NCBI RefSeq assembly: GCF_030143255.1
Contig: NZ_JARJNR010000002.1
Location: 248,001 to 312,000, forward strand
Source of the DNA: Frigidibacter sp. SD6-1
Lineage (GTDB): Bacteria > Pseudomonadota > Alphaproteobacteria > Rhodobacterales > Rhodobacteraceae
Reading direction: 5' to 3'
Length of the DNA stretch: 64,000 nucleotides
The position numbers and the translations under genes were made by a program. Every line of letters begins with the position of its first letter. Position 1 is the stretch's first letter. Positions 41,452 through 59,233 of this stretch are shown piece by piece. Under the pieces are notes generated by a model. That model did no database searches. It was not told the origin of the DNA and worked only from the letters and a program-made list of their open reading frames with translations.

Positions 41452-44400
41452 TCAGTGGAAATCGCGGCTGGGGAACAGCCGCTTGGCCTGCTCTCTCGGG
41501 TGCATGGCACGGGGGGGCTGGCGGGGCGGTTTGCGGGGCTGGCGGGGGGCCTCGTCGGCCCCGGGGCGGGTGATGCCCACTGCCCCGTCCAGCGGATGGC
41601 CAAGCTCCGACAGGCGGTGGGAGATATCCTCGATCTCGTCGGCGATCAGGTGGGTGACGATCCCCTCCCGCTCCAGCCGGCCGGTGACACGCAGAAGGCG
41701 GCCGCCCATGACAGCGCGGCGGAAACGTTCGTAAACCTTTGGCCAGACAACGATATTTGCGACGCCCGTCTCATCCTCCAGCGTCAGGAAGATGACGCCC
41801 GAGGCAGTGCCCGGCCGCTGGCGGGTGATGACGAGGCCGCAGACCGAGGTGCGGCGGAGGGGGGCGGCGACCAGCCGGTCATGCGGCAGAAGCCCCGGCA
41901 GCGCGGGGCGCAGAAGCTCCATCGGATGGGCGCGCAGCGTCAGGCGCAGGGCGATGTAATCCTCCACCACCTCCTCGCCCAGATGCATGGGCGGCAGCGT
42001 GACGCGCGGCTCTCGCACCCCCTCGCCATCAACCGGATCGGAAAACAGCGGCAAAGGCCCCGCCCCCTTTATCCCCCGCACCTGCCACAGCGCCTCGCGG
42101 CGGCTGAGACCCATCGACAGGAAGGCATCCGCCTCGGCCAGCCGTTCCAGCGCCGCCGGAAGAAGCCCCGCGCGCAGCCACAGGCTTTCGGGGTCGGGAT
42201 AGCCGTTGCCCCGCGCGGCGACGATCCAGCCTGCCTCCTCCTCTCGAAACCCCTTGATCTGGCGGAAGCCGAGCCTCAGCGCCAGCGCCCCGTCGGCGCG
42301 GCGTTCCAGAAGATTGTCCCAAGCACTGCTGTTCACGCAGATCGGCCGCACCTCGACCCTGTGGTCGCGCAGGTCGCGCACGATCTGGGCGGGGGCGTAG
42401 AACCCCATCGGCTGGGAATTCAGCAGCGCGCAGGCGAAGACCGCCGGATGGTGGCACTTGAGCCAGGACGAGACATAGGTCAGCATCGCAAAGGCCGCCG
42501 CATGGCTTTCGGGAAAGCCGTAATCGGCAAAGCCCTCGATCTGTGAAAAACAGGCCTCGGCGATCGCCTGATCATAGCCGTTGGCCCGCATGCCCGCGAT
42601 GAACCGGTCGCGGTGGGCGCCGATCGTGCCCATGCGGCGGAAGGAGGCGAGCGAGCGGCGTAGCTGGTCGGCCTCTTCGGCGGAATAGCCCGCGCCGACC
42701 ACGGCGATCTGCATGGCCTGTTCCTGAAAGAGCGGCACGCCAAGCGTCTTTTCGGTAACCCGGGCGAGCGCGGGGCCGAACGGTTCCGGCGCCTCCAGCC
42801 CCTGGCGGCGCCGGATGTAGGGTTTGACCATGCCGCCCTGGATCGGCCCGGGGCGGACGATGGCGACCTCGATCACCAGATCGTAGAAGGTTGCGGGTTT
42901 CATGCGTGGCAGGAAATTCATCTGCGCCCGGCTTTCGACCTGAAAGACCCCCACCGCATCGGCGCGTTGCAGCATCCGGTAGGTTGCGCGGTCCTCCTGC
43001 GGCACGCTGTCGAGCGTGAGGCGGGTCCGTTCATGTTCCTCCAAGAGGTCGAAGGATTTGCGCAGGCAGGTCAGCATGCCAAGCGACAGGACATCGACCT
43101 TGAGGATGTTCAGCGCGTCGATATCGTCCTTGTCCCATTCGATGACGGTACGACCCTCCATCGCGGCATTCTCGATCGGGCACAGTTCGTCGAGGCGGCC
43201 GCGCGTGATGACGAAGCCGCCGACATGCTGGCTGAGATGGCGGGGAAAGCCGATGATCTCGCCGATGAGGCGGATGGTCTGCGCCAATCGCCGGTTGGTG
43301 GGATCAAGGCCCAGTTCGCGGATGCGCTCGGGCTCCGCCCCCCGGTTGGACATGCCCCAGATCTGGCCCGACAAGGCGGCGGTCACATCCTGGGACAGGC
43401 CCATGACCTTGCCCACCTCGCGGATCGCGGCGCGCGAGCGGAAATGGATCACGGTCGCGCAGAGACCCGCGCGGTGGCGGCCGTATTTTTCATAGATCCA
43501 CTGGATGATCTCTTCCCGCCGCTCATGTTCGAAATCGACGTCGATGTCGGGCGGCTCGCCCCGGTGGCGCGAGATGAAGCGTTCGAAGACCATGCCGATC
43601 ATGTCGGGGGACACATCGGTGATGCCCAAGAGGTAGCACAGCACCGAATTGGCCGCCGAGCCCCGCCCCTGGCAGAGGATGCCGCGCCTGCGCGCCTCGG
43701 TCACGATGTCATGGACGGTCAGGAAATAGGCAGCGTAGTTCAGCTCGCCCACCAGTTTCAGTTCCTTTTCCATCAGCCCCAGAACCCGGTCGGGCGCGCC
43801 GCCGGGATAGCGACGCGCAAGCCCCTCGCGCGACAGCCGTTCCAGCCGGGCCTGCGGGCTTTCGCCATCGGCCACCTCGTCGGGGTAATCGTAGCTGAGC
43901 TCCGAGAGGTCGAAGCTGCAGCGCGCGGCGATCTCCAGCGTGCGGCGCAGCGCGGCGGGATGATTGCGGTAAAGCCGCGCCATGTCGGCGGCGCCCTTCA
44001 GGCGGCGTTCGCCGTTGGGCAGCGCCCGGGTGCCGATCCGGTCGATGGTGATGCCTTCGCGCAGGCAGGTCAGCACGTCGGCCAGCTGACGGCGCGATGC
44101 GCGGTGCATCAGCACATCGCCCACCGCCACCATCGGCGCCGAGGCGGCAAGCGCCAGATGGGCGCAGGCGTCGAACCAGGCCTGATCGGAGCCGTCATAG
44201 CGCGGCGCGGCGCCAAGGAAGACCTGCCCCGGATAGCGCCGACGCAGCCGCTGGACGGGCAGGCGCGCGGCGGCAAGGTCGGCGGCCAGACCGGCAGGCG
44301 GCAGGGCGATCAGGATCATGCCCCGGCACCCTTCTTCCAGATCGGCCAGCGTCAGGTGACATTCGGCCTTGCCCGCGCGGCGCTTGCCGAGTGTCAGAAG

Positions 44401-44844
44401 CCGCGCCAGCCGGTGATAGGCATCGGGGTCGGCGGGCAGGGCCAGCCAGTGGACCGGACAGTCCGTCAGCACCAGCCGCGCGCCGACGATCAGCTTCGGC
44501 AGGACGGGCTTTTCGGGCACGACAAGGTCCTGCGGCGTGCCGATCACCTGCCGCGAGTTGGGATCGACCCGGTGGGAGGAGCGGATGCGCAGCTTCTCCT
44601 CGGCTTCTTTCCTCAGGGTCTTCAGCGCCGACCAGGCGCGCACCACGCCCGCCAGCGAATTGCGGTCGGTGATGGCGATGGCGTCGAGCCCCAGCTCAGT
44701 GGCGCGCAGGACCAGTTCCTCGGGGTGGGAAGCGCCGGTGAGGAAGCTGAAGTTCGAGGTGACGCACAATTCGGCATAGCGCGATCCGTCCAGCAAGGGA
44801 TGCGGCATTCCGGCGGGGGTTGGCAGGGCGGCGGGCTTCGTCAC
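41452..44844 (-). CDS. dnaE2: error-prone DNA polymerase DnaE2 (ImuC)
   Basis: A 1130-residue C-family polymerase used for damage-induced mutagenesis with ImuA and ImuB. The PHP domain (about 15-250) starts YAELCVTSNFSFLTGASHPEELV. The palm has the catalytic acidic pair in GEPPDIDVDFEHERREEIIQWIYEKYGR, then LSQHVGGFVITRGRL and FQEQAMQIAVVGAGYS; an OB domain (GLVITRQRPGTASGVIFLTLEDETGV) ends it. The GTG start at 44844 overlaps the imuB stop (GTGA) with GGGGGA 7 nt upstream, so translation is coupled. Full length for DnaE2 and shorter than DnaE1. Confidence 0.95.
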   Translation of the reverse strand: MTKPAALPTPAGMPHPLLDGSRYAELCVTSNFSFLTGASHPEELVLRATELGLDAIAITDRNSLAGVVRAWSALKTLRKEAEEKLRIRSSHRVDPNSRQVIGTPQDLVVPEKPVLPKLIVGARLVLTDCPVHWLALPADPDAYHRLARLLTLGKRRAGKAECHLTLADLEEGCRGMILIALPPAGLAADLAAARLPVQRLRRRYPGQVFLGAAPRYDGSDQAWFDACAHLALAASAPMVAVGDVLMHRASRRQLADVLTCLREGITIDRIGTRALPNGERRLKGAADMARLYRNHPAALRRTLEIAARCSFDLSELSYDYPDEVADGESPQARLERLSREGLARRYPGGAPDRVLGLMEKELKLVGELNYAAYFLTVHDIVTEARRRGILCQGRGSAANSVLCYLLGITDVSPDMIGMVFERFISRHRGEPPDIDVDFEHERREEIIQWIYEKYGRHRAGLCATVIHFRSRAAIREVGKVMGLSQDVTAALSGQIWGMSNRGAEPERIRELGLDPTNRRLAQTIRLIGEIIGFPRHLSQHVGGFVITRGRLDELCPIENAAMEGRTVIEWDKDDIDALNILKVDVLSLGMLTCLRKSFDLLEEHERTRLTLDSVPQEDRATYRMLQRADAVGVFQVESRAQMNFLPRMKPATFYDLVIEVAIVRPGPIQGGMVKPYIRRRQGLEAPEPFGPALARVTEKTLGVPLFQEQAMQIAVVGAGYSAEEADQLRRSLASFRRMGTIGAHRDRFIAGMRANGYDQAIAEACFSQIEGFADYGFPESHAAAFAMLTYVSSWLKCHHPAVFACALLNSQPMGFYAPAQIVRDLRDHRVEVRPICVNSSAWDNLLERRADGALALRLGFRQIKGFREEEAGWIVAARGNGYPDPESLWLRAGLLPAALERLAEADAFLSMGLSRREALWQVRGIKGAGPLPLFSDPVDGEGVREPRVTLPPMHLGEEVVEDYIALRLTLRAHPMELLRPALPGLLPHDRLVAAPLRRTSVCGLVITRQRPGTASGVIFLTLEDETGVANIVVWPKVYERFRRAVMGGRLLRVTGRLEREGIVTHLIADEIEDISHRLSELGHPLDGAVGITRPGADEAPRQPRKPPRQPPRAMHPREQAKRLFPSRDFH

Positions 44845-46310
44845 GCGAATTCCCCCTGCACGAACCAGCCGGGATTTTCCGGCGTGTGAAAGAGCCACAG
44901 CCGACGGCCCTCGCGCGTGTCGACCTTCCAGTAATCGCGCAGGCCCGTGCGCCAGCCCTCATCCTCCAGCCACCATTCCGGGGCGATCCGTTCGGGGCCG
45001 GTGGCCTGCCCGGTGGTCAGCGCCATCCGCCGCCAGCGGAACCGGTCGGGCGGGCGGTTGCCCCGGCCCGTGATCGGTTCGGGCGCAAAAAGGCTCAGGG
45101 GCCGCGGGCGAGGGTTCAGCCAGCCGCCTTCGGGGCGGCTGAAGGCGGCTGGCGCAAGGGTGAAGGCGCGTTCGGGGATATGGCTGTCGGCAGGCAGGAA
45201 GCGGCGGATATTTTCCAGCCCGATTCTTGTGCCGATCCGGGTGATGAGGTCATCGAGCCGTTCGGGTTCATGGCGCGCCTCGCCGATGGCGATCTGCTGG
45301 GCGGCCAAAGGTTCGACCGCCACCGCCTCCAGCCGGATCTGGTCGATGCCGTAGCCCGCATCCACTTCGGCGATACCACGCTCGAAGAGCGGCAGGATGC
45401 GGGCGGGCTCGCGCATCGGGCCGGCCAGGCGCAGTTCGACCTGCCGGCTGGCCTGATCGACGCGCCTGAGGGTCAGCTGCAACCGCCGCGCCCCCGCGCC
45501 GTTCGCCTTCAGCCGCTCGCAGAGCGGCCCCAGAAGCCGCGCCGTGGCCGCCATCACGTCGGCGACCAGACCGATCGGTTCGGGCAGGGTCAGGCGCAGG
45601 CCGTAATGCGGCGGCTCGGCCAGGGGCGAGAGCGCCTCGGGCGCCTCTCCCAGCGCCTGATCGAGCCGCATCAGAAGGTCCGGCCCGAAGCGGCGCGAAA
45701 GCGGCGCCCGCGCGGTGGCCAGAAGATCGCCGATCCGGCGCAGGCCCAGCCGTTCGAGGCCGGTCGAGACCTCCGCCTCCAGCCGCAGCGCCGCGACCGG
45801 CAGGGGGGAAAGCGCCGCCCCTTCGTCCCCCGGCAAAGCGATCCCCTCGCCGTAATGGGCCAGCGCCCAGGCCGCGCCACGTGTGCCCGCAAGCCCGAGC
45901 CTCAGTTCCAGCCCCGCCCGCGCGGCGCGGGCGCGCATGTCGGCCAGCATCGCCGCCTCGCCGCCGAACAGATGGGGCGTGCCGGTGATGTCCAGGACCA
46001 GCCCGTCCATACTCTCCACCCCCACCCAGGGCGAATAAAGCCGGGCCCAGCGGCTGAGCGCGGTCAGGAAGCGCGCGTCGAGGTCGGGCCGCGCCGGGCG
46101 GCTGACCAGATCGGGGCAGAAGGCGCGGGCGTCGGCAAGGCTCATGCCCCGGTGAAGCCCCGCCTGTTCGGCCCGGATGTTCAGGCAATAAAGCCGCTCG
46201 GCATTCTGTTCTTTCAGCGTCAGGGCAAAGGGCGCCTCAACCGGGCAGGTCCGCAGAACCCGGTCGCTCGCCAGCCGGGGAAACCACATTGAGATGACGC
46301 GTTTCTTCAT
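44841..46310 (-). CDS. imuB: ImuB, catalytically inactive Y-family polymerase-like protein
   Basis: A 489-residue protein that bridges ImuA, DnaE2 and the beta clamp. The Y-family fold starts KKRVISMWFPRLASDRVLR, where active polymerases have an Asp-x-Asp motif; the palm acids are missing, as is normal for ImuB. LGLRRIGDLLATARAPLSRRFG is the helix-hairpin-helix. The region after residue 350 (RFLPADSHIPERAFTLAPA, SLFAPEPITG) is the ImuB C-terminal domain. The ATG at 46310 keeps the conserved start; it lies inside imuA (74-bp overlap). Confidence 0.93.
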   Translation of the reverse strand: MKKRVISMWFPRLASDRVLRTCPVEAPFALTLKEQNAERLYCLNIRAEQAGLHRGMSLADARAFCPDLVSRPARPDLDARFLTALSRWARLYSPWVGVESMDGLVLDITGTPHLFGGEAAMLADMRARAARAGLELRLGLAGTRGAAWALAHYGEGIALPGDEGAALSPLPVAALRLEAEVSTGLERLGLRRIGDLLATARAPLSRRFGPDLLMRLDQALGEAPEALSPLAEPPHYGLRLTLPEPIGLVADVMAATARLLGPLCERLKANGAGARRLQLTLRRVDQASRQVELRLAGPMREPARILPLFERGIAEVDAGYGIDQIRLEAVAVEPLAAQQIAIGEARHEPERLDDLITRIGTRIGLENIRRFLPADSHIPERAFTLAPAAFSRPEGGWLNPRPRPLSLFAPEPITGRGNRPPDRFRWRRMALTTGQATGPERIAPEWWLEDEGWRTGLRDYWKVDTREGRRLWLFHTPENPGWFVQGEFA

Positions 46311-46824
46311 TCCAACGGACATGCCAGGCGCCAAGTGTTCCTGATTTGTTCTTGATACTTTCCCACCGCATCAGAGTCGAGTCCCGCGCGCCCGGATCGA
46401 AGAGAGGCGTGGCGCGCCAGCGGGTCTCGGCGGCGTTCGAGCCCATGCCTTCGGGGATGAGGCAGAGCCCGGTCGCGCGCCCTGCCTTGGCGGCGAGCTG
46501 AAGCCTTCTCCCCTCGCGCAGGTCCAGGGGCCGGGTGACCTCCACCACCACGAACGGCGCCGCGCCGTCCTTCAGCGCCTCTTCGGCAATGGCGAGACTG
46601 TCGGTCTGGTCCTTGCCGAGGGCCAGAAGCAGGCGCGCGGGATCGAAGAAGCGGGCAAGGGCGACCGGGTTCACGCTGTCGGCAAGCCAGCCCTCGCGCA
46701 CCCAGATCACCGGACCCGTGGCGGACGCGGCGGCAATGGCGGCAAAGGCGAAGGCACCGGGGCCGCAGACCTCGTGCACACGCGCCCGCCGCAGGGGGAA
46801 GCTGGAAGAAAAGCCGGTTCGCAT
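46237..46824 (-). CDS. imuA: ImuA, RecA-fold mutagenesis protein
   Basis: A 195-residue protein with a RecA-like core but no usable Walker A, as in short alphaproteobacterial ImuA proteins. RARVHEVCGPGAFAFAAIAAA, PVIWVREGWL, AIAEEALKDGAAPFVVVEV and TRWRATPLFDPG are the recognisable pieces. First gene of imuA-imuB-dnaE2, with overlaps at both junctions. I looked for a LexA site (GTTC/GAAC pairs 7 bp apart) before the start and did not find a clear one. Confidence 0.9.
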   Translation of the reverse strand: MRTGFSSSFPLRRARVHEVCGPGAFAFAAIAAASATGPVIWVREGWLADSVNPVALARFFDPARLLLALGKDQTDSLAIAEEALKDGAAPFVVVEVTRPLDLREGRRLQLAAKAGRATGLCLIPEGMGSNAAETRWRATPLFDPGARDSTLMRWESIKNKSGTLGAWHVRWNEETRHLNVVSPAGERPGSADLPG

Positions 46825-46877
46825 GCGCTGACGCTAGCCGAAAAGCCGACGCATTCCAACGCCCCCTTGTGACGGCT

Positions 46878-47939
46878 TCAGCGCAGCCGCTGTTCGGTGA
46901 CCGGATCGAAGAAGAGCGCGCTGGCCGGATCGAAACCGACCTGAACCGGCGTCCCTTCGGCAATCGTGTCGTCATTGCGGGTCTCGACGATCAGCCGCAC
47001 CCCGCCGGGCGCCGTGAGATAATCGTAGGACACGCCGCCAAGCCGTTCGCGGATATCGAGCGTGATGGCCGAGGCACCGGGCGTCACCGTCAGATGCTGC
47101 GGGCGGAGGCCTACAAGCACCGTTCCGCCATCGGCGGGCAGCGTCACCTTCGTGGCGATCGTCTGATCCCCAAGGGCCGCGATGCGCACCCTGCCCTTCT
47201 CGACCCGCCCTTCAAGGAAATTCATGCTGGGCGAGCCGATGAAGCCCGCGACGAAGCGGTTGTCGGGGTCGCTGTAAAGCTGCATCGGGCTGCCGACCTG
47301 TTCGATCCTGCCCGCGCGCAGGACGACGATCTTGTCGGCTAAGGTCATCGCCTCGACCTGGTCGTGAGTCACATAGATCATCATCGCGCCGATCTCCTTG
47401 TGAAGCCGCGCGATCTCGACCCGCATGTCGACGCGGAGTTCCGCGTCGAGGTTCGACAGGGGCTCGTCGAAGAGAAAAACCTCCGGTCCCCGCACGATGG
47501 CGCGACCGATGGCGACGCGCTGGCGCTGGCCGCCGGACAAGGCCTTGGGCTTGCGGTCGAGATAGGGATCGAGCTTCAGGATGCGGCTCGCCTCGGCGAC
47601 CTTCGCCTTGATCTCGGCCGCCGGATGGCCGGTCATCTTCAGGCCGAAGCCCATATTCTCGGCCACCGTCATATGGGGATAAAGCGCGTAGGTCTGAAAG
47701 ACCATCGCCACGCCGCGCTCGGCGGGGTCGAGAGCGGTGACGTCGCGCTGCCCGATCCGGATCGCGCCGGACGTGGTCTGTTCCAGCCCCGCCACCATCC
47801 TCAGAAGCGTGGACTTGCCGCAGCCGGAAGGGCCGACGAAGACGCAGAATTCGCCATCGCCGATATCGAGGTCAACGCCGTGAATGACCCCGACGGGCCC
47901 GAACTTCTTCACGACATTGCTCAGCGTCACTCCGGCCAT
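46878..47939 (-). CDS. carbohydrate ABC transporter ATP-binding protein (MalK/UgpC type)
   Basis: A 353-residue ATPase with Walker A GPSGCGKST, Q-loop FQTYALYPHMTV, signature LSGGQRQRVAIGRA, Walker B VFLFDEPLSNLDAELR and switch His in YVTHDQ. A C-terminal OB/TOBE region (about 240-353) marks the CUT1 sugar-importer group. The ATG at 47939 is chosen because it starts the conserved MAGVTLSNVVKKFG. The partner permeases are not in the window: the binding-protein gene across the divergent regulator is truncated into a chimera. It may be stranded or serve another importer. Confidence 0.94.
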   Translation of the reverse strand: MAGVTLSNVVKKFGPVGVIHGVDLDIGDGEFCVFVGPSGCGKSTLLRMVAGLEQTTSGAIRIGQRDVTALDPAERGVAMVFQTYALYPHMTVAENMGFGLKMTGHPAAEIKAKVAEASRILKLDPYLDRKPKALSGGQRQRVAIGRAIVRGPEVFLFDEPLSNLDAELRVDMRVEIARLHKEIGAMMIYVTHDQVEAMTLADKIVVLRAGRIEQVGSPMQLYSDPDNRFVAGFIGSPSMNFLEGRVEKGRVRIAALGDQTIATKVTLPADGGTVLVGLRPQHLTVTPGASAITLDIRERLGGVSYDYLTAPGGVRLIVETRNDDTIAEGTPVQVGFDPASALFFDPVTEQRLR

Positions 47940-47949
47940 ACTCACCCCC

Positions 47950-48735
47950 CTAGTTGGTCTCTGGAAACTGCCAGGTTTCCGCCTCGGCGCCGACGGCTTC
48001 GGCACACTGCAGAAGCCGGGGTTTCAGCGCATTCAGTTCCTCAAGCGTGTGACGCGAGGTCGAGGTCGCGATGGACACCGCGCCGATGACCCGGCCAGAC
48101 CGCGACCGGATCGGCGCCGCGATCGAGATGATGCCGCGCTCGTGCTCCTCCCGGTCGAAGGCGACACCTTCGGCGCGGATCACCTCAAGCTCGGCCATGA
48201 GCGACGCCGGCTCGGTATGGGTGGCGGGCGTATAGGGATGGAAGGATTGCTGCGGCATGACCTTGTCGCGGGCGGCATCCGGCAGGAAGGCGAGGATCGC
48301 CTTGCCCACGCCGGTGCAATAGGCGGGTGCTACCCGGCCCGCCTGGGCCAGCGTTTCGAACATGTCGGTCGACTTGCGCTTGTCGACGAACAGGATATGG
48401 CCGCTGTCGATCTGCGCCAGATGAATGGCCTCTCCCACCTCCGCCGCCAGCGCGTCGAGATGCGGGCGGGCGAGCGGCGCGAGCGAACTGTGCGCCCAGG
48501 CATTGTGGGCAAGGCGCACGAGCCGGACGCCAAGCGCATAGGCGCCGCTGTCGGCATCCTGAGTGAGCATGCCCTGATTCACCAGCGTCTGCAGCAGGCG
48601 GTAGAGCGTGGCCTTGGGATAGCGCGAAATCGCCAGAAGCTCGGAAAAGCGTACCGACCCGCCCTGATCGGCAACCATTTCAAGCACGTCAAGCGCCTTG
48701 CCCACCGTTCCGTCGGCATGACCCTCGCTGCCCAT
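47950..48735 (-). CDS. IclR-family transcriptional regulator
   Basis: A 261-residue regulator with an N-terminal winged HTH (residues 8-70: VGKALDVLEMVADQGGSVRFSELLAISRYPKATLYRLLQTL, written here in parts) and the IclR ligand domain (GVRLVRLAHNAW, YCTGVGKAILAFLP, DREEHERGIISIAAPIRSRSGRVIGAVS). ATG at 48735 has AGAGGTGG upstream. Co-directional with the ABC ATPase (10-nt gap) and divergent from the sugar-degradation genes, which it most likely controls. Confidence 0.93.
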   Translation of the reverse strand: MGSEGHADGTVGKALDVLEMVADQGGSVRFSELLAISRYPKATLYRLLQTLVNQGMLTQDADSGAYALGVRLVRLAHNAWAHSSLAPLARPHLDALAAEVGEAIHLAQIDSGHILFVDKRKSTDMFETLAQAGRVAPAYCTGVGKAILAFLPDAARDKVMPQQSFHPYTPATHTEPASLMAELEVIRAEGVAFDREEHERGIISIAAPIRSRSGRVIGAVSIATSTSRHTLEELNALKPRLLQCAEAVGAEAETWQFPETN

Positions 48736-48804
48736 GCGACCACCTCTGCGACTCAGTTGACAGGATAGAGGATAGCGAACATAGTTTTCAATATTCAAGA
48801 CTTA

Positions 48805-48821
48805 GTTTCACTTAATGGAAC
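48805..48821. promoter_or_regulatory. candidate IclR operator
   Basis: GTTTCACTTAATGGAAC is a 17-bp inverted repeat with 6-bp arms, one mismatch and a 5-bp AT-rich spacer. It lies between the divergent IclR gene and the chimeric gene, 18 nt before the latter's ATG. A TTGACA (48757-48762) with a weak -10 box near 48781 lies upstream, so a protein bound here would block the start region. Confidence 0.4.
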
Positions 48822-48838
48822 AAAGTCGGGAGGATACA

Positions 48839-50203
48839 ATGGTCCATTACGCAAGGGGCGCGCTCGCCCTGACGGCGGCTTTGCTGATGACGACAGCAGC
48901 CGTTGCCCAGGACAAGCGCGTGGTGAAGTACAATGCCGACCACGATCAGGCGCCGCTTGCGGCGATGGAACGGGTGATCGCCGATCTCGAGGCCGCGAAC
49001 CCCGACATCGACATCCAGCTGAACAATTTCGACCATGAAGGCTACAAGACCGCGATCCGGAACTTTCTGACCGCGGATGCCCCCGACCTTGCCAACTGGT
49101 ATGCGGGCAACCGCATGGCGCCCTTCGTCAATTCCGGTCAGTTCATGGATGTCTCGGATGTCTGGGAAGCGAACGGGTTGAAGGATTCGTTTGGCTCGGC
49201 GCTCGCCTCGATGACCATCGATGGCAAGCAATGGGGCGTGTCCTATATGCGGGCACTTTGCCCCGACGCGATCCTTCTCCAATATGTCAACCCGATGGCA
49301 ATCGACACCTGGTCCATCGCCGCGCGTTACCGGGATATCCGGCAGGTTGGCCTCTGCCATTCCGTGCAAGGCACTGCCCATGAACTGGCCCGCGATCTCG
49401 GGATCGACCCTGAAACGCTCGTCTATCGGGCGGGCGGCATCAATCATATGGCCTTCTACACGGAGTTCGGCCAGCGTCAGCCTGACGGCTCCATCCGCGA
49501 CCTCTACCCCGCGCTGCGCGAGGGCTACCGCGCGGGCCGCATGCCGCTCGAAAGCAGCTGGAACCCGCGCTGCCCCAACCTCGTGCGCTACGAGGTGATG
49601 ATGCATCTGGGGTATTTCGTCACCGAAAGCTCCGAACATTTCGCCGAATATGTGCCCTGGTTCATCAAGTCCCGGCGCCCCGACCTGATCGAACGCTTCC
49701 GCATCCCCCTGGACGAATATCCCAAACGCTGCGAGGAACAACTCGTCAGCTGGAAGGCGCAGGCCGCGAGCTATCGCACGGCCGAGCGGATCGAGGTGAA
49801 CCAAAGCCACGAATATGTCGCGACGATCATGAATGCGGTCACGACCGGCACGCCATCGGTGATCTACGGAAATGTGGCGAACCACGGTCTTATCCCGCAG
49901 CTTCCCACGGGCTCTGCCGTCGAGGTGCCGTGCCTCGTCGATGCGAACGGCATCCAGCCGACGCCCGTCACCGACCTCGCCCCGCAACTGACCGCGCTGA
50001 TGCGCACCAATGTGAACGTACAGGAGCTTACCGTCGCCGCCCTTCTGACCGAGAACCGCGACCATATCCATCATGCCGCCATGCTTGACCCCCACACGGC
50101 GGCCGAGCTTGACCTCGGACAGATCCGCGCGCTGGTCGACGATCTGATCGCCGCGCACGGCGAGTGGCTGCCGACCTGGGCACGCGGGGCAAAAGCCGCA
50201 TGA
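48839..50203 (+). CDS. chimeric gene: sugar-binding protein N-terminus fused to GH4 alpha-galactosidase C-terminus
   Basis: A 454-residue open frame. Residues 1-24 are a signal peptide; 25-136 match the first lobe of a family-1 extracellular solute-binding protein (PLAAMERVIADLEAANPDI, DAPDLANWYAGNRM, DGKQWGVSY). From about residue 137 the protein is a GH4 glycosidase: LCPDAILLQYVNPMA, GLCHSVQGT with metal/catalytic C173, GINHMAFY with H203, and YFVTESSEHFAEYVPWF. The GH4 NAD-binding domain (GxGS motif) and most of the binding protein are gone. GGAGG lies 5 nt before the ATG at 48839. Probably produced by an in-frame deletion near 49244; likely nonfunctional as either protein. Confidence 0.85.
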   Translation: MVHYARGALALTAALLMTTAAVAQDKRVVKYNADHDQAPLAAMERVIADLEAANPDIDIQLNNFDHEGYKTAIRNFLTADAPDLANWYAGNRMAPFVNSGQFMDVSDVWEANGLKDSFGSALASMTIDGKQWGVSYMRALCPDAILLQYVNPMAIDTWSIAARYRDIRQVGLCHSVQGTAHELARDLGIDPETLVYRAGGINHMAFYTEFGQRQPDGSIRDLYPALREGYRAGRMPLESSWNPRCPNLVRYEVMMHLGYFVTESSEHFAEYVPWFIKSRRPDLIERFRIPLDEYPKRCEEQLVSWKAQAASYRTAERIEVNQSHEYVATIMNAVTTGTPSVIYGNVANHGLIPQLPTGSAVEVPCLVDANGIQPTPVTDLAPQLTALMRTNVNVQELTVAALLTENRDHIHHAAMLDPHTAAELDLGQIRALVDDLIAAHGEWLPTWARGAKAA

Positions 50204-50211
50204 GACTTGCC

Positions 50212-50240
50212 CTTTCATCTTGGTCCAAATACCTCCGCCG
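50212..50240 (-). repeat. copy of the GGxGTATTT-type element between the chimera and the dehydratase
   Basis: On the minus strand it reads CCGGCGGAGGTATTTGGACC followed by AAGATGAAA, matching the copies near 26706 and 26744. It occupies most of the 73-bp gap, so it lies inside a co-directional gene series, not at a convergent end. Confidence 0.55.
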
Positions 50241-50276
50241 GAGGCTCCCGAACCCTCCGCTATTCCCGAAGGCAAC

Positions 50277-51986
50277 ATGACAAAGAACCGCCGCAACCGC
50301 GCCTGGTATGGCAAGCTCGACAAGGATGGGTTCATCCACAGAAGCTGGATGAAGAACCAGGGTTTCCCCGACCATGTCTTCGACGGCCGCCCGGTGATCG
50401 GCATCTGCAATACCTGGTCCGAACTCACGCCCTGCAATTCGGGGCTCCGCGACCTCGCCGAAGGCGTGAAGCGCGGCGTGTGGGAGGCGGGCGGTTTCCC
50501 GGTCGAGTTTCCGGTCATGTCGCTCGGCGAGACGCAGATGAAGCCGACCGCGATGCTTTTCCGCAATCTTCTGGCGATGGATGTCGAGGAATCGATCCGC
50601 GCCTACGGGATGGACGGCGTCGTGCTTCTGGGCGGTTGCGACAAGACCACGCCGGGACAACTGATGGGCGCGGCCTCGGTCGATCTGCCCGCCATCGTCG
50701 TCTCCTCCGGTCCGATGCTGAACGGCAAATGGCAGGGCAAGGATATCGGCTCGGGCACGGACGTCTGGAAATTCTCCGAAGCCGTCCGAGCGGGCGAGAT
50801 GACCTTGAAGGATTTCATGGCGGCGGAAAGCGGCATGAGCCGCTCGAAAGGCGTCTGCATGACGATGGGCACGGCCTCCACCATGGCAAGCCTTGTCGAG
50901 GCGATGGGGATGAGCCTGCCCACGAACGCCGCCCTTCCCGCCGTCGATGCCCGCCGCATGGCGCTGGCGCATCTGACAGGCAGGCGCATCGTCGAGATGG
51001 TGGAGGAGGACCTGCGCCCGTCGAAAGTCATGACCCGCGCCGCGCTCGAAAATGCGATCCTCGCCAATGCGGCGGTCGGTGGTTCCACCAATGCGGTCGT
51101 CCATCTGCTGGCCATCGCGGGTCGCGTTGGCGTGGACCTGACGCTCAAGGATTTCGAGATCGGGTCGGACATCCCCCTCCTCGTCAACTGCATGCCCTCG
51201 GGCAAATATCTGATGGAGGATTTCTGTTACGCGGGCGGGATGCCGGTGGTGCTGAAGGCACTCTCCGCGCACCTGCGCAAGGCCATGACGGTGATGGGCA
51301 AGGACATCTCTGCCTATGCCGAAGGCGCCGAATGCTGGAACCGCGACGTGATCCGCCCCTTCGCCGATCCGGTGAAGCCTGCCGCCGGCATCCGGGTCCT
51401 GAAAGGCAACCTCGCGCCGGACGGCGCCATCGTGAAACCGTCCGCCGCCACACCCGCGCTTCTGGAGCATGAAGGCGTGGCGCATGTCTTTGAGAGCATC
51501 GAGGACATGAAGACCAATATCGACCGCGAGGATCTGCCTGTGACGGCAGAGACGATCCTCGTCCTGAAAGGCTGCGGGCCGAAGGGCTATCCGGGCATGC
51601 CGGAAGTGGGCAACATGCCTATTCCGCGCGCGCTGGTGAAACAGGGCGTGCGCGACATGATCCGCATTTCCGACGGCCGCATGTCCGGCACCGCCTTCGG
51701 CACGGTGATCCTGCATGTCTCGCCCGAGGCGCAGGTGGGCGGCACGCTGGCGCTCGTGAAGACCGGCGACCGGATCAGGGTGTCGGCCAAGGCCGGTGTG
51801 CTGGAGCTTCTGGTCAGCGACGCGGAGCTTGCCGCCCGCCGCACCGCCTGGGTGCCCGAGGAAAGCCCCTATACGCGGGGCTATGCGAAACTGTACATCG
51901 ACCATGTCCTTCAAGCCGACCGGGGCGCCGACCTCGATTTTCTCGTCGGCAAGGATACAAGGCCGGTGACGCGGGAGAGCCATTGA
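50277..51986 (+). CDS. sugar-acid dehydratase of the IlvD/Edd family (arabonate/galactonate type)
   Basis: A 569-residue Fe-S dehydratase that removes water from an aldonic acid, giving a 2-keto-3-deoxy acid. Cluster or metal ligands are expected in GICNTWSELTPCN, GGCDKTTPGQ and KGVCMTMGTASTM; RISDGRMSGTAFG carries the conserved catalytic Ser region. The Edd/IlvD subgroup resembles L-arabonate dehydratases (about 570-590 residues). Followed by an SDR, DgoK and a beta-galactosidase, so D-galactonate is the likely substrate here; this is inference from context. Confidence 0.88.
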   Translation: MTKNRRNRAWYGKLDKDGFIHRSWMKNQGFPDHVFDGRPVIGICNTWSELTPCNSGLRDLAEGVKRGVWEAGGFPVEFPVMSLGETQMKPTAMLFRNLLAMDVEESIRAYGMDGVVLLGGCDKTTPGQLMGAASVDLPAIVVSSGPMLNGKWQGKDIGSGTDVWKFSEAVRAGEMTLKDFMAAESGMSRSKGVCMTMGTASTMASLVEAMGMSLPTNAALPAVDARRMALAHLTGRRIVEMVEEDLRPSKVMTRAALENAILANAAVGGSTNAVVHLLAIAGRVGVDLTLKDFEIGSDIPLLVNCMPSGKYLMEDFCYAGGMPVVLKALSAHLRKAMTVMGKDISAYAEGAECWNRDVIRPFADPVKPAAGIRVLKGNLAPDGAIVKPSAATPALLEHEGVAHVFESIEDMKTNIDREDLPVTAETILVLKGCGPKGYPGMPEVGNMPIPRALVKQGVRDMIRISDGRMSGTAFGTVILHVSPEAQVGGTLALVKTGDRIRVSAKAGVLELLVSDAELAARRTAWVPEESPYTRGYAKLYIDHVLQADRGADLDFLVGKDTRPVTRESH

Positions 51987-52000
51987 TGCTTCGGGCCGGA

Positions 52001-52047
52001 CAAAATTCTTCGAAGAATTTTGCCAAGAGTTTTGCAAAACTCTTGGC
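52001..52047. repeat. two abutting perfect palindromes
   Basis: Arms CAAAATTCTT (52001-52010) and 52013-52022 form a 22-bp perfect palindrome; arms GCCAAGAGTTTT (52022-52033) and 52036-52047 form a 26-bp perfect palindrome sharing one base with it. They lie in the 79-bp gap between dehydratase and SDR, inside an apparent operon. Same paired layout as 5205-5275 and 41294-41340. Confidence 0.8.
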
Positions 52048-52065
52048 GACAGACGGAGCCGAGCG

Positions 52066-52836
52066 ATGACCCTTTCAGCGTGCTTTCCCGACCTTGAAGG
52101 CGCCTCGGTCTTCATCACCGGCGGCGGGTCGGGCATCGGCGCCAGCCTGACCGAAGGGTTCCTCAGGCAGGGCGCGAAGGTCGCGTTCGTACAGCGCTCG
52201 GATTCGGCCGCCTTCTGCGACGAGATGGAGGCGGCGACCGGCAACCGGCCGCTCTTCATCCGCTGCGACATCACCGACACCGGGGCGCTCAAGGCCGCCG
52301 TCGATCAGGCAGCGGAGGCGCATGGGCCGGTGCGGGTGCTGGTGAACAATGCGGCGAACGACAAGCGCCATGACGTGATGGAAGTCGACGAGGCGTTCTG
52401 GGGCTGGTCGATGGCCATCAATCTCAAGGCCTATTTCTTTGCCATTCAGGCGGTCGTGCCCGGCATGAAGGCACTGGGCGGCGGGTCGATCATCAACTTT
52501 TCCTCGATCAGCTACATGATGGGAAATGCGGGCTACACGCTCTACACCACCGCGAATTCCGGCATCAACGGCATGACCCGCAGCCTCGCGCGCGAATTCG
52601 GCCCCGACCGGATCAGGGTCAACGCGCTCGCCCCCGGCTGGGTGCTGACGCAAAAGCAGAAGGACCTGTGGGTGACACCCGAGGGCCTGGCGAAACATCT
52701 CGACCGCCAGTGCCTGAAGGATACGCTCGGGCCCGAGGATGTGGTGGGCGGCACGCTGTTCCTCGCCTCCGACATATCGAAGATGATGACCGGGCAGGCG
52801 CTGGTGATCGACGGCGGCGTAGTGGTGACAGGATGA
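52066..52836 (+). CDS. short-chain dehydrogenase/reductase with Asn in place of the catalytic Lys
   Basis: A 256-residue SDR with the cofactor motif TGGGSGIG (18-25), NNAAN (94-98) and the SSIS serine region (146-149). The catalytic YxxxK reads Y160-TTA-N164: the lysine codon position holds AAT (52555-52557). The remainder (GMTRSLAREFGPDRIRVNALAPGW, GQALVIDGGVVVTG) is intact. In context it would be a galactose or aldose 1-dehydrogenase. The replacement may be a trait of its subgroup or a loss of activity. Its stop overlaps the dgoK start (ATGA). Confidence 0.87.
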   Translation: MTLSACFPDLEGASVFITGGGSGIGASLTEGFLRQGAKVAFVQRSDSAAFCDEMEAATGNRPLFIRCDITDTGALKAAVDQAAEAHGPVRVLVNNAANDKRHDVMEVDEAFWGWSMAINLKAYFFAIQAVVPGMKALGGGSIINFSSISYMMGNAGYTLYTTANSGINGMTRSLAREFGPDRIRVNALAPGWVLTQKQKDLWVTPEGLAKHLDRQCLKDTLGPEDVVGGTLFLASDISKMMTGQALVIDGGVVVTG

Positions 52837-53756
52837 GCGGCCCGGTCGAACGCGCCGCATGGGTCGCCATCGACTGGGGCACCAGCAACCTGCGGCTCTG
52901 GCGCATGGGTGCGACGGGCGAGGTCCTGGGCGAGGCGCGATCGGGCCTCGGCATGGGGGTGCTGAAGCCCGGGGAATTCGAGCCGGTCCTGTGTGACCTG
53001 ATCGCGAACGACCTGCCGGAAAGCGGCCGCCTGACAGTCATCGCCTGCGGCATGGTGGGGGCGCGGCAGGGCTGGCAAGAGGCGCGCTATGTCGCGGTTC
53101 CCGCCCCGCCACCCGGCATCACGCAGGCGCTGAAGGTCGAAACCCGCGACCCGAGGCTTTCGGTCCATATCCTGCCGGGCATGAGTCAGGCCGCACCTGC
53201 CGACGTGATGCGCGGCGAGGAAACCCAGATCGCCGGGTTCCTGTCGGCGGAGCCCGGTTTCGACGGCGTCCTCTGCCTGCCCGGCACCCATTGCAAATGG
53301 GCCCATATCAGCGCGGGCGAGGTGGTGAGTTTCCGCACCTTCATGACCGGCGAGATCTTCGCGCTTCTGTCGGGCCACTCCGTGCTGCGCCATTCGGTGG
53401 CCGCCTCGGGCTTCGACGCCGAGACATTCGCCGCCGCGGTCAGCCATGTCATGTCGCGCCCGCAGGCGCTGGCGGGCGACCTCTTCTCGATCCGGGCCGA
53501 GACCCTTCTCGACGGGCTGGGTGCGGTGCAGGCGCGCTCGCGCCTCTCCGGCCTTCTGATCGGGGCGGAGCTTGCCGCCGCGCGGCCCTACTGGCTGGGG
53601 CAGGAGATCGTCATCCTCGGCGAGGGCGGGCTTGCCGCCGCCTACCGGACGGCGCTTGAGGCGCAGGGGGCGGATGCCCGCAGGGTCGATGCCGCCCGGC
53701 TGACGCTCGCGGGCCTCACCGCCGCCTGGCGGGCACTTGCCGGGGCGGTGGAATGA
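52833..53756 (+). CDS. dgoK: 2-dehydro-3-deoxygalactonokinase
   Basis: A 307-residue kinase that phosphorylates 2-keto-3-deoxygalactonate in the De Ley-Doudoroff route. Family motifs: AIDWGTSNLRLWRM at the N-terminus, CGMVGARQGWQEA, CLPGTHCKWAHIS and FMTGEIFALLSGHSVL. ATG at 52833 overlaps the SDR stop; its own stop overlaps the GH42 start (ATGA), so three genes are translationally chained. The next enzyme, the aldolase DgoA, is not adjacent. Confidence 0.93.
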   Translation: MSGPVERAAWVAIDWGTSNLRLWRMGATGEVLGEARSGLGMGVLKPGEFEPVLCDLIANDLPESGRLTVIACGMVGARQGWQEARYVAVPAPPPGITQALKVETRDPRLSVHILPGMSQAAPADVMRGEETQIAGFLSAEPGFDGVLCLPGTHCKWAHISAGEVVSFRTFMTGEIFALLSGHSVLRHSVAASGFDAETFAAAVSHVMSRPQALAGDLFSIRAETLLDGLGAVQARSRLSGLLIGAELAAARPYWLGQEIVILGEGGLAAAYRTALEAQGADARRVDAARLTLAGLTAAWRALAGAVE

Positions 53757-55693
53757 CCGCCCGGCGCCGGACGCTCGGCGTCTGCTACTACCCCGAACAT
53801 TGGCCCGAGGCGCTCTGGGCCGAGGATGCGCGGCGGATGGCCGACGCCGGTCTGACCTGGGTCCGGATCGGCGAGTTCGCCTGGGGGCGGATCGAGCCGG
53901 AACCGGGGCGGTTTGACTGGGGCTGGCTCGACCGGGCGATCGGGACATTGGGGCGCGAAGGCCTCAAGGTCGTGCTTGGCACGCCGACCGCAACGCCGCC
54001 GAAATGGGTGCTGGACCGCCATCCGGACATGCTGGCGGTCGATGCGGAAAGCCGCCCGCGCAAGTTCGGCTCGCGGCGGCATTATTGCTTCAGCCACGAG
54101 GGTTACTTGCAGGAATGCCGCCGGATCGTGACCGAGATCGCGCGGCGCTATGGCCGGAACCCGCATGTGGCGGCCTGGCAGACCGACAATGAATATGGCT
54201 GCCACGATACGGTCCTGTCCTATTCGGTTGCCGCGCGCCGAGCCTTCCGCGACTGGCTTCGCGCCCGCTTTCCGGCGAAAGGCGGAAATGGCGGCGACAT
54301 CGGCGCGCTGAACCGGGCCTGGGGCAATGTCTTCTGGTCGATGGATTATGCCGATTTCGACGATATCGACCTGCCGAACCTGACGGTGACCGAACCGAAC
54401 CCGGCCCACAGCCTCGCCTTCCGGGCCTTTTCCTCCGATCAGGTCGCGCGCTTCAACCGCGCGCAGGTCGAGATCATCCGCGCCTATTCCGACGCGCCGA
54501 TCGCCCACAATTACATGGGCCGGGTGACCGAATTTGACCATTTCAAGGTCGGTGCGGACCTCGATATCGCGTCTTGGGACAGCTATCCACTTGGCTTCCT
54601 CGAAGACCGGGTGGGCGCGAGCGCGGAGGATCAGCGCCATTTCGCCCGGCAGGGCGACCCGGATTTCCAGGCGTTCCACCACGATCTGTACCGCGCGGTC
54701 GGGCGCGGCCGGTGGTGGGTGATGGAGCAGCAGCCCGGGCCGGTGAACTGGGCGCCCTACAACCCCGCGCCCCTGCCCGGTATGGTCCGCCTCTGGACAT
54801 GGGAGGCGTTTGCCCATGGCGCCGAGGCGGTGTGCTATTTCCGCTGGCGGCAGGCGCCCTTCGCGCAGGAACAGATGCATGCGGGCCTTATGCGCCCCGA
54901 CAGCGCCGAAGCACCGGGGCTGGCAGAGGCGCGGACGGTGGCGGCGGAACTGGCCGATGCCCCAGAGGTCGCACCGGCCCCGGCGCCGGTCGCGCTGATC
55001 TTCGATTATGCGGCAGACTGGGCCTGGGCGGTGCAACCGCACGGGCGGGGACTGAGTTACTTCGATCTGGTCTTCGCCCACTACCGGGCGCTGCGGCGGG
55101 CGGGACTGTCGGTGGATATCCTGCCGCCCGACGGACGGGATTGCGACGGCTATCGCGCGATCTTCGCGCCGGGCATGATGCACATGCCCGAGCCAGTGAA
55201 AGAGGCGCTGGCGTCATGCGGCGCCGAGGTGGTCATCGGCCCGCGCAGCGGCGCGCGCGACGGGCATTTCTCGATCCCGGTGCCGCTGCCGCCCGCCTTT
55301 CCCGGCCTCGACGTCACGGTCGCGCGGGTCGAAAGCCTCAGGCCCGACATGCCGCTGCCCGTCGCGGGCGGCGGCGCTGTCACCGGCTACCGTGAGGCGC
55401 TCGACACGACATGCGAGGCTTTTCTGCGGCTTGAGGACGGCCAGGCCGTCGCGGTACGCGCCGGGCGGATCAGCTATGTCGGCGGCTGGGGCGACGCGGC
55501 GATGCTGGACCGGCTGGTCGCCGCGATTGCCGGGCGCGCGGGTCTCGACACCCTTCGTCTGCCGAAGGGCGTCCGGGTCCGCGACAGCGGGCGGGAGCGG
55601 TTCTGGTTCAACCACAATCCCCATCCCGTCGAGTGCGCCGCGGGCATGATACCCGCAGCCGGAGTCATCCGTCTGCGCACGGACGCCGACTAG
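53753..55693 (+). CDS. beta-galactosidase, glycoside hydrolase family 42
   Basis: A 646-residue cytosolic enzyme (no signal peptide) that releases galactose from beta-galactosides. The TIM barrel (1-370) starts LGVCYYPEHWPEALWAEDARRM; acid/base E147 in AWQTDNEYG and nucleophile E325 in WWVMEQQPG are present. The trimerisation domain (about 375-575, VALIFDYAADWAW) and a small C-terminal beta domain complete the GH42 plan. The 4-nt overlap with dgoK fits one operon delivering galactose to the galactonate route. Confidence 0.95.
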   Translation: MTARRRTLGVCYYPEHWPEALWAEDARRMADAGLTWVRIGEFAWGRIEPEPGRFDWGWLDRAIGTLGREGLKVVLGTPTATPPKWVLDRHPDMLAVDAESRPRKFGSRRHYCFSHEGYLQECRRIVTEIARRYGRNPHVAAWQTDNEYGCHDTVLSYSVAARRAFRDWLRARFPAKGGNGGDIGALNRAWGNVFWSMDYADFDDIDLPNLTVTEPNPAHSLAFRAFSSDQVARFNRAQVEIIRAYSDAPIAHNYMGRVTEFDHFKVGADLDIASWDSYPLGFLEDRVGASAEDQRHFARQGDPDFQAFHHDLYRAVGRGRWWVMEQQPGPVNWAPYNPAPLPGMVRLWTWEAFAHGAEAVCYFRWRQAPFAQEQMHAGLMRPDSAEAPGLAEARTVAAELADAPEVAPAPAPVALIFDYAADWAWAVQPHGRGLSYFDLVFAHYRALRRAGLSVDILPPDGRDCDGYRAIFAPGMMHMPEPVKEALASCGAEVVIGPRSGARDGHFSIPVPLPPAFPGLDVTVARVESLRPDMPLPVAGGGAVTGYREALDTTCEAFLRLEDGQAVAVRAGRISYVGGWGDAAMLDRLVAAIAGRAGLDTLRLPKGVRVRDSGRERFWFNHNPHPVECAAGMIPAAGVIRLRTDAD

Positions 55694-55886
55694 TCCTGTC
55701 CTGCCCACCTGCCAGAGGTGGCGACAAGGTCCGCCTCCTGCCCTGTCGCGCCGCACAGGGTGCGTGAAACCCGCCACTCATGCCGGCAGAGCAGCCCGGG
55801 AAGATCAACGCAGGCTGTACACGGCGCTTGCGGAATGCGAAAGATGGCCCCAGGGGCCGCGGAAATCGAGGGGCGGCAGGGGTTAG

Positions 55887-56264
55887 ATGGACGTTCCAAT
55901 CGGATTCTCGAATACGATTCTGCCGCTCTTCATTCTTTGCGCGGCGGCGATTTCCCTGCCGCGGCTGATCGTGCCAAAGGAAACCCGGTCCCAGCGGATG
56001 GTCGTCTCGGGTGTCCTGCTGTCGGCCTTTCTTGTCCAGTCCTTGTCCACCGCCCTCACGGGCTATCTCTTCGCCCAGACCGGCGCCAATGTCGGCGGGG
56101 CCTTGTCGGACGCGCCGGGCGAGACCATGTTCTACCTGATAAGGAACTCCTTCCTGCCTATGGTCGCATGGGGCCCGCTGATGATCGTTTCCTGGCTTTC
56201 GCTCTCCCGCCGGACAGAAAGGCTGCGCGGGCAGGATCTGGCGCGGGAACGGCTGAGGGAATGA
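55887..56264 (+). CDS. small membrane protein, first of a four-gene cluster
   Basis: A 125-residue protein with three membrane helices (about 10-27, 40-60 and 84-105) and a basic C-terminus. No family is recognised. It lies 193 bp after the GH42 gene, in the same direction as the three genes that follow (31-nt gap). The start at 55887 has a GGCAGGGG purine run upstream. Function unknown. Confidence 0.7.
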   Translation: MDVPIGFSNTILPLFILCAAAISLPRLIVPKETRSQRMVVSGVLLSAFLVQSLSTALTGYLFAQTGANVGGALSDAPGETMFYLIRNSFLPMVAWGPLMIVSWLSLSRRTERLRGQDLARERLRE

Positions 56265-56295
56265 CGGGCCACGGGCGTCCGGAGACGAGGCAGCA

Positions 56296-57651
56296 ATGAG
56301 ACGGCTGATCGAAAAGGGGCTGATGTTCGGCAATCTGGTCGCCGTGGATTCGCCCGCGCTGGTTGAGCGCTACAACCGCGCGCTGGAGCGGCTGACCGGC
56401 AAGCGGACGGCTCTTTCGGATTTCCATATCGACCTGTCGGGCTACAGCCCGGAAGTGGGCGACGAGCTGGGCGACCACCTTTACCTCAACCCCAACGGCA
56501 TGAACCGCCAGTTCATCCTTCTGACCACCGAACAGAAGGAAGCACCGCTGCTGAACGCCAAGTTCTCGACCTCGCGCGGCATTCTCGTGCGCTACATCGC
56601 GGAAAACGAAGAGCAGCTTTTCTCGCTCACCGCCCGCGACGCCGTGGCGGGCGAGTTGGAAAATACGATCTTCAAGCTTTCCACGCCCGGACAATTGCTC
56701 GACCTGCGGCAGGTGACGGTCAGGGCCGACACTGCCGGACAGGCGGTGAAGGGGGCCAAGAAGATGCAGGGCCTGATCCACCGGTTCCGGACCGAATATG
56801 ACGCCTGGTACGACGATGCGCTGATCGGCGAGATGATCGATCTGGCCAAATCGACCGGCGACATCACCCGCAACCCGATCCGGCTGAGCGAGAAGGCCTA
56901 CGATCAGGGCAATTTCTGGACCGCGCATTTCGGCGGGATCTATCTTTTCCCGAAGGTCGACTTTCCCGCCGCCATCTCCGTCGGCCCGAAGGAAGGGCTG
57001 GGCCGGATGCCGATCGCCTATACGTTCGACCTTGGCGACCGCAATCAGGTCGCGAAATTCCTCGACCTCAACGATCTTGCCGAACCGGTCGTCCATGCCC
57101 GGGGCGCCGATGCCGCCGCGATCCTGCGGCAGAAGATGGATTTCATCCTCGTCGATTTCGCCGCGCGCGCGGGGATCGACCATGGCGCGGGCACGCGGGC
57201 GGAACTGCGGCTGATCGCGAATACGCTCGCCGCGCAGCTGCCCGAGGAGTTTCACGGGCTGGCCGCCATGCTTCGCTGGGCCGAGGCGGGCGGCACATGG
57301 CCGCGCATCACCTCCGACCATCCGTCCTATTTCTACACGCTGCGCGCCAAGGCCGGACCCGACCGCGATCTGGTCAACATGCTTCTGGCCGAGCTTTCGC
57401 CCCTCGACATCCGCCAGACCTTCATCTGCCACAAGGAGCTGTTCTACCGGCTTTATTCCGGCTGGTCCGAGGCCAAGCAGGATTATGTGGCGACCTTCCT
57501 TGCCGCGGAATATCAGATGGACAGGGTCGGCACGCGCGAGGCCCTGTTCGGGCCTGAACCCGACATGGGCGACCATCTGCCCGATCTTGTCGCCCGCGTC
57601 GGTCCCTGGGGCGCCGTGCGCGCCAAACCTGCCCGAAAGGACAGACGATGA
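56296..57651 (+). CDS. DUF6638-like cytosolic protein
   Basis: A 451-residue protein with no signal or membrane helix. Patterns such as LMFGNLVAVDSPALVERYNRAL, DFHIDLSGYSPEVGDEL and HKELFYRLYSGWSEAKQDYVATFLAAEYQMDR match a rhodobacterial family I associate with DUF6638. No catalytic motif is evident. Its stop overlaps the next start (ATGA). It is the only clearly cytosolic member of the four-gene cluster. Confidence 0.75.
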   Translation: MRRLIEKGLMFGNLVAVDSPALVERYNRALERLTGKRTALSDFHIDLSGYSPEVGDELGDHLYLNPNGMNRQFILLTTEQKEAPLLNAKFSTSRGILVRYIAENEEQLFSLTARDAVAGELENTIFKLSTPGQLLDLRQVTVRADTAGQAVKGAKKMQGLIHRFRTEYDAWYDDALIGEMIDLAKSTGDITRNPIRLSEKAYDQGNFWTAHFGGIYLFPKVDFPAAISVGPKEGLGRMPIAYTFDLGDRNQVAKFLDLNDLAEPVVHARGADAAAILRQKMDFILVDFAARAGIDHGAGTRAELRLIANTLAAQLPEEFHGLAAMLRWAEAGGTWPRITSDHPSYFYTLRAKAGPDRDLVNMLLAELSPLDIRQTFICHKELFYRLYSGWSEAKQDYVATFLAAEYQMDRVGTREALFGPEPDMGDHLPDLVARVGPWGAVRAKPARKDRR

Positions 57652-57926
57652 TCGCCATCCTCCGCCTTCTGGTCTTTGCCTTCATCGGGCTGTCGGTCTT
57701 CTACCTGCTGCTCGGCGCCTACTGGCGATCGCTGCGCCGCGAGGCGCTGGAAAAGCAGTGGGACGCGGCCCCGCCCGAGGGCGAGGGCGAGAGCGAACGC
57801 GCGGCCTTCATCGCGAAGGGCATGGAGGCCTACGAGCACGGGCTGAAGAAGAAACTTCTCTGGCTCGTATACATCATCCCGATGGCGCTGATCGTGGTCA
57901 TCGCCTATGTGCAGAACTATCAATAG
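57648..57926 (+). CDS. two-helix membrane protein in the DUF6638/DUF1523 cluster
   Basis: A 92-residue protein with a helix at each end (residues 3-24 and 70-87) and an acidic, Glu-rich centre between them. The start overlaps the DUF6638-like stop by 4 nt and its own stop is 9 nt before the DUF1523 gene. Function unknown. Confidence 0.75.
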   Translation: MIAILRLLVFAFIGLSVFYLLLGAYWRSLRREALEKQWDAAPPEGEGESERAAFIAKGMEAYEHGLKKKLLWLVYIIPMALIVVIAYVQNYQ

Positions 57927-57935
57927 GGGGCGCCG

Positions 57936-58706: not shown

Positions 58707-58753
58707 GCGGCCGCACGAGGAGGCTGCGTCAGCAGCAACGACGAGAGCGCGGA

Positions 58754-59071
58754 TCAAAGATCGCGGAAATAGGGATCGACCGCCCAGTAGGTCTCCAGAT
58801 CGGCGGCACGTCCCCGCGGCAGGCCGAGCGCCTCCATCGCATAGAGATCGGCGCCAAGGAGCGCCGCGAGCCGCCAGGCCTGCGCCGCATCGTCGCGGGC
58901 GGGGCTGCCGGGGCCGAACGTGGCCTCGATATCCGCCGCCGCCGTCGCCAGCGTGAAGATCAGCTCCGAGGGCCGCGCCTCCGGCCAGGCGTGCACCATG
59001 TCACGAACGACCGAGCGCCAGCCATCTGGCGCCTCGAGCAACTTCTCGATGGCAAAATGAACTTTTTCCAC
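58754..59071 (-). CDS. small conserved hypothetical protein
   Basis: A 105-residue, largely helical cytosolic protein (EKLLEAPDGWRSVVRDMVHAWPEARPSELIFTLATAAADIEATFG). The start is probably GTG at 59071; there is no early in-frame ATG. Divergent from deoC and convergent with the DUF1523 gene. No domain recognised. Confidence 0.65.
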   Translation of the reverse strand: MEKVHFAIEKLLEAPDGWRSVVRDMVHAWPEARPSELIFTLATAAADIEATFGPGSPARDDAAQAWRLAALLGADLYAMEALGLPRGRAADLETYWAVDPYFRDL

Positions 59072-59133
59072 GCCGGCAGCCCCACCTGCTGCCTCGATAT
59101 AAGCAGAAATCCCCTCCCGCGGCTACTTTGCGT

Positions 59134-59233
59134 CAAATTTGATCTGATTCTGGCGTCAGAAGACACCCTCCGTGCCAATTGTTGGCAGTTGCATCTCAAA
59201 CGCAGACCAAATCCTGACCAACTGGTCAAATTT
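59134..59233. promoter_or_regulatory. cluster of dyads upstream of deoC
   Basis: Three perfect dyads lie in the 251-bp gap before deoC: TCAAATTTGA (59134-59143), TGCCAATTGTTGGCA (59173-59187, 6-bp arms) and TGACCAACTGGTCA (59215-59228). GTCAAATTT occurs twice (59133-59141 and 59225-59233). The block is richer in A+T than its surroundings. These look like binding sites for one or more dimeric repressors acting on the deoC-aldehyde dehydrogenase operon. Confidence 0.55.

Follow-up and report, generated by a model that had tools for sequence, protein, structure and literature searches.

The open reading frame at 48839-50203 of the window, the 64,000-nucleotide stretch of the Frigidibacter sp. 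SD6-1 genome analysed here, fuses the beginning of a sugar-binding protein to a glycosidase of family GH4, and is a young fusion born of a deletion. It is most likely a pseudogene, while the remaining genes of its operon are still under constraint. The whole account, in which a recent illegitimate deletion of 3,038 bp happened to leave both remnants in one frame and the joined gene has since been drifting as a pseudogene, appears to us very probable.

The chimeric frame and its junction

An ORF check of the window gives a single open frame of 454 codons from 48839 to a stop codon ending at 50203, with an additional in-frame ATG at 48815, 5' of this start. In that one reading frame, 136 codons of the binding protein of a CUT1-type sugar ABC transporter (48839-49246, plus strand) are followed by 318 codons of the GH4 enzyme and the stop (49247-50203, plus strand); the two parts are 95% and 89% identical, respectively, to genes of G004, a genome of the same genus. 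The Pfam profile SBP_bac_1 matches residues 40-128 (profile positions 7-97 of 307), Glyco_hydro_4 residues 135-188 (129-182 of 183) and Glyco_hydro_4C residues 200-420 (3-211 of 211). The open frame and these domains bear out the initial annotation, which had described an in-frame chimera with about 136 residues of binding protein, and the junction it had placed at about 49244 lies close to positions 49245-49247 found by alignment with G004.

Neither protein is complete. Counted against G004, the binding protein retains 136 of 415 residues, the two-lobed whole not being present, and the GH4 part has lost 133 of 451 residues, the nucleotide-binding start among them. Residues 1-33 of the chimera are identical to G004, and its N-terminus, judged by eye, looks like a putative signal peptide. 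Cys173 and His203, which we take to be metal-site residues of GH4, stand in nearly invariant columns of the GH4 alignment, as the earlier mention of a kept Cys and His had implied. The accompanying remark that the NAD domain is missing applies to the nucleotide-binding start, but the Pfam NAD-domain profile is still matched over its final 54 positions. The GxGS-like nucleotide-binding motif of active GH4 enzymes is absent from the GH4 part in the window; among 95 GH4 hits, 93 have G[AS]G[SA] upstream, the exceptions being the window and one locus cut by its own end. A profile search of the window's genome found the chimera as the sole PF02056 hit. By sequence, the solved relatives of the GH4 part are GH4 enzymes (9 sequences, best 1s6y), and those of the binding-protein part are AcbH and other sugar-binding proteins (11 sequences, best 3ooa).

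The state without the join is seen in G004, where the order binding protein, permease, permease, GH4 is intact, as the initial annotation had anticipated for close relatives. In a blast comparison of window positions 44001-60000 with the G004 stretch, the two sides align at 88-90%: the segment ending at 49247 has 89.9% identity, the one beginning at 49245 has 89.4%, and 3,038 bases of G004 lie unmatched between them. Missing with this block are the last 279 of 415 binding-protein codons, both permease genes and GH4 codons 1-133 of 451 (for the two truncated genes, the G004 start codon was chosen according to homologues, and residues were counted manually). Apart from this deletion and an insertion of about 80 bp, window and G004 are collinear over the 14.7 kb compared. 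A single deletion of 3,038 bp thus explains the join, which confirms the earlier proposal of one deletion of several kilobases. At the junction, 49245-49247, three bases (ATA) are common to both G004 flanks and there is no inserted sequence; we estimate that three shared bases would occur by chance in about 5% of cases. A repeat scan of G004, covering the 20 largest of 21 families of direct repeats, found no long repeat joining both breakpoints. G004 also carries a perfect 15-base inverted repeat (L021:10366-10380 and L021:13648-13662), which lies within codons of both genes, beyond the breakpoints by about 100 and 130 bp.

It has to be considered whether the living strain still has the block, which would then have been dropped from the library or from the assembly of 38 contigs. 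We regard such an artefact as quite unlikely, because only three bases are shared, too few for an assembler overlap, and because the 3,038-bp block was not found anywhere in the window's genome when all contigs were searched. The same query recovered G004 at full length (100%) and positions 1-3023 of 3034 in G002, another genome of the genus, at 79%. The assembly is moreover rated 100% complete, the junction lies deep within its contig, and mis-joining would not explain the excess of changes at conserved residues in the chimera that is described below.

Distribution among relatives

Among the five genomes of the genus examined, G004 and G002 match both parts of the chimera as separate genes, and G001 and G003 have no match to the chimera query. 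Counting the window's own genome, 201 of 394 family genomes yield a match to this query at a cut-off of 1e-20. Among the matches listed, which extend to an E-value of about 1e-35, none in the 393 other family genomes spans both parts; each covers one part and extends no more than 30 residues beyond the junction. Several GH4 matches start slightly ahead of the junction, the widest listed being those of G368 (residues 107-454) and then G281 (124-454); inspection of these two and of G153 revealed full GH4 genes with a GxGS-like motif, 3.1-3.5 kb from the start of an intact binding-protein gene.

Both parts occur in the same orientation at 58 of the loci analysed. In the window 0 bp separate them, and in the other 57 loci, 52 of which are distinct, 3,033-3,539 bp do. 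The split state, seen in all 57 of these other loci, is ancestral. Among 80 of 288 matching stretches examined none matches residues 1-454; several read 107-454, including the locus of Frigidibacter sp. RF13, where the two genes lie 3 kb apart. An old fusion common to many genomes, for which the initial annotation had named full-length chimeras in many distant genomes as the sign, is rejected for the searched set, in which no full-length match to the chimera besides the window occurred. The acquisition of a ready-made chimera from elsewhere is rejected as well, given that the flanks are collinear with G004. A near-match search of 72,556 plasmid records found no place covering 80% of the chimera query.

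Constraint on the chimera and on the surrounding operon

The chimera is surrounded by genes recognized by profile matches. On the minus strand lie a MalK-type ATPase gene of the broken transporter (46878-48005) and an IclR-family regulator gene (47950-48798); on the plus strand follow genes for an IlvD/EDD-family dehydratase (50277-51986), a short-chain dehydrogenase (SDR, 52066-52836), a DgoK-family 2-keto-3-deoxy-galactonokinase (52833-53756) and a GH42 beta-galactosidase (53753-55693). This set presumably serves galactoside import and galactose breakdown through galactonate. There is no permease gene within the gap at the chimera locus, and the ATPase gene lies beyond the regulator, both as described in the initial annotation. 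The genes 3' of the chimera show no less constraint than their counterparts in G004, so the operon probably remains in use, supplied through another import route.

Two further differences in gene spacing were noticed. DgoK and GH42 abut (53753-53756) in the window and in G004, and are about 0.9-1.5 kb apart in many relatives (L022, L069, L072, L077), so that a gene sitting between them there, perhaps the aldolase DgoA, is missing or located elsewhere in the window and in G004. The insertion of about 80 bp relative to G004 lies between the IlvD and SDR genes, at about 51987-52066, and consists of two adjoining palindromes, CAAAATTCTTCGAAGAATTTTG and GCCAAGAGTTTTGCAAAACTCTTGGC; in G004 the IlvD stop and SDR start codons overlap at this place. 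With up to 3 mismatches allowed, a 24-base core of the insertion occurs seven times in the genome (the reversed control 0 times), and these copies differ, yet both palindrome arms remain matched. The insertion looks like a REP-like repeat that separates a coupled gene pair.

Whether the chimera itself is still constrained was assessed by counting, among the residues that relatives conserve, those at which just one of the two sisters, the window or G004, differs. In the main setting, a residue had to be conserved in at least 90% of relatives with an identity of at least 55%, and six neighbouring genes served as comparison. In the window lineage 11 of 225 such residues are changed in the chimera, as against 10 of 1,255 in the six neighbours (Fisher p 7e-5), and in the G004 lineage 0 of 225 and 8 of 1,255, respectively. 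When a majority of 70% or more is required instead, the chimera has 13 changes in the window lineage and 2 in G004, and the neighbours 22 and 20 (p 0.029). Over 12 interdependent settings the nominal p of the rate contrast between chimera and neighbours ranges from 3e-5 to 0.005; that of the lineage contrast between window and G004 ranges from 0.0013 to 0.50, the latter at the strictest setting, and is below 0.05 in 6 of the 12. The changes of the main setting fall on the binding-protein part (4 of 76) and on the GH4 part (7 of 149); since both halves contribute, neither half alone seems to be kept. Among the invariant residues lost in both halves are F50, L118 and P135 of the binding protein, each present in 47 of 47 relatives. 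This pattern fits the view that the two halves alike have recently been released from constraint.

Pairwise dN/dS against G004 has low values in the two halves (0.07 and 0.12), which is what one would expect if most of the divergence is older than the deletion. The frame that is open over 454 codons speaks against decay. In a neutral simulation, for which base composition and transition bias were assumed values, the observed excess needs about 0.02 substitutions per site, by which time 52% of frames are still open. That the frame is open hence does not speak for function. With dS between the window's genome and G004 at 0.33-0.54, the simulation puts the age of the chimera at roughly a tenth of the lineage's time.

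The excess of amino-acid changes can have more than one explanation. On the one hand, the fused frame might be translated, exported and selected for a new periplasmic role. The open frame of 454 codons and the unchanged binding-protein residues 1-33 would agree with this, and the surplus of amino-acid changes could reflect diversifying selection, for which signs of positive selection in fusions of this kind, as given in the available part of a recent preprint (PMC12803068), provide a parallel. A structure model from a 20-row alignment (mean pLDDT 67.6) has much of the GH4 part confidently folded, as a fold without the lost N-terminal part; in the binding-protein part, pLDDT is below 50 over residues 1-47 and 54-132, and the model is uninformative there because the alignment is nearly empty. 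Hence the model does not decide between decay and function. On the other hand, residues invariant in the examined relatives have been lost from both halves, and chance suffices to account for an open frame at the simulated age. The periplasm is not known to supply NAD, which counts against a role for the exported protein. The nucleotide-binding start is gone from the GH4 part, and NAD is required by most enzymes of this family, according to the part of PMC7676230 at hand. We consider a new exported protein quite unlikely. Its more specific form, a newborn periplasmic protein under diversifying selection since the deletion, for about a tenth of the species' age, with the GH4 C-terminal domain exported and working free of NAD, is most improbable. 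Relaxation and diversifying selection are not separable from one genome.

Alternatively, the deletion itself might have been kept by selection, as it would preserve continuous translation up to the downstream galactose genes and remove a costly transporter. Constraint on the downstream genes matches that in G004, and the fused frame continues to 73 bp before the next gene, both of which agree with such a benefit. The benefit is hypothetical, however, and an in-frame outcome is expected in about a third of deletions. We consider this explanation very unlikely.

The ATPase at 46878-48005 has not drifted: in the 90% setting, 1 of 188 conserved residues is changed, compared with 11 of 225 in the chimera (nominal p 0.008). 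This is unexpected for a dead transporter, unless the ATPase serves another one. The genome has 25 other SBP_bac_1 hits. For 19 of these, the 7 best included, an ATPase hit lies no more than about 5 kb away, and the remaining 6 have none within that distance at an ATPase cut-off of E 1e-40. Given these six, another transporter may borrow the ATPase. In the same search for orphan transporters, a stop flagged at C35:239173 falls outside the frame of the ATPase there.

Of the three outcomes originally offered for the locus, the data favour decay rather than a new exported protein, which found no support, or an assembly error, because the excess of changes at conserved residues affects both halves in the window lineage. 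The deletion of 3,038 bp, the parts lost with it and the intact state in relatives are established; according to the decay account, the deletion was a recent illegitimate event in this lineage that left the two remnants in one frame by chance (about 1 in 3). Transporter and GH4 enzyme would no longer work. The joined frame would retain a start and continuous translation ahead of the galactose-catabolism genes, so that these could stay expressed, and the joined gene, freed from its old constraints, would be a drifting pseudogene that has yet to meet a stop codon.

Comparison with known deletion-born fusions

Compared with the intact galactoside operon of Rhodobacteraceae and relatives (G004, G002 and other loci), the window has the same gene order and similar sequence outside the deleted block, but its binding protein and GH4 genes are truncated and its permeases gone. 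It provides a clean natural example of a gene fusion made by a deletion, for which another genome of the genus preserves the ancestral operon intact. The comparison with neighbouring genes allows decay to be tested against the birth of a protein, and its outcome leans to decay. Annotation software would probably call the chimera one full-length protein; otherwise this is ordinary operon erosion.

Fusions of this kind have been described by Kaul et al. (2026 preprint, PMC12803068), the available part of which reports multi-kilobase deletions that join two gene fragments, with the split state ancestral and old catalytic motifs lost. There, an acrR-glcD case keeps its frame, and two mycobacterial cases seem not to be immediately functional. 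The chimera shares with these fusions the multi-kilobase deletion, the split ancestral state and the lost catalytic motif, and keeps its frame as acrR-glcD does. In contrast to them, it is found in a CUT1 sugar-import operon of a Frigidibacter relative and in one genome; the preprint text as available contains none of the terms ABC transporter, Frigidibacter and Rhodobacter. Beside those cases, the comparison with neighbouring genes here points to relaxed constraint. Gallant et al. (2020, PMC7671302), as far as the accessible part of that paper goes, likewise reported chimeric proteins from multigene deletions in Mycobacterium tuberculosis, that is, gene fusion through deletion in natural isolates. 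One of the M. tuberculosis fusions is expressed according to mass spectrometry, whereas the product of the present one is putative. The chimera is a new instance, in another lineage, of a deletion-born fusion, a kind that is already known.
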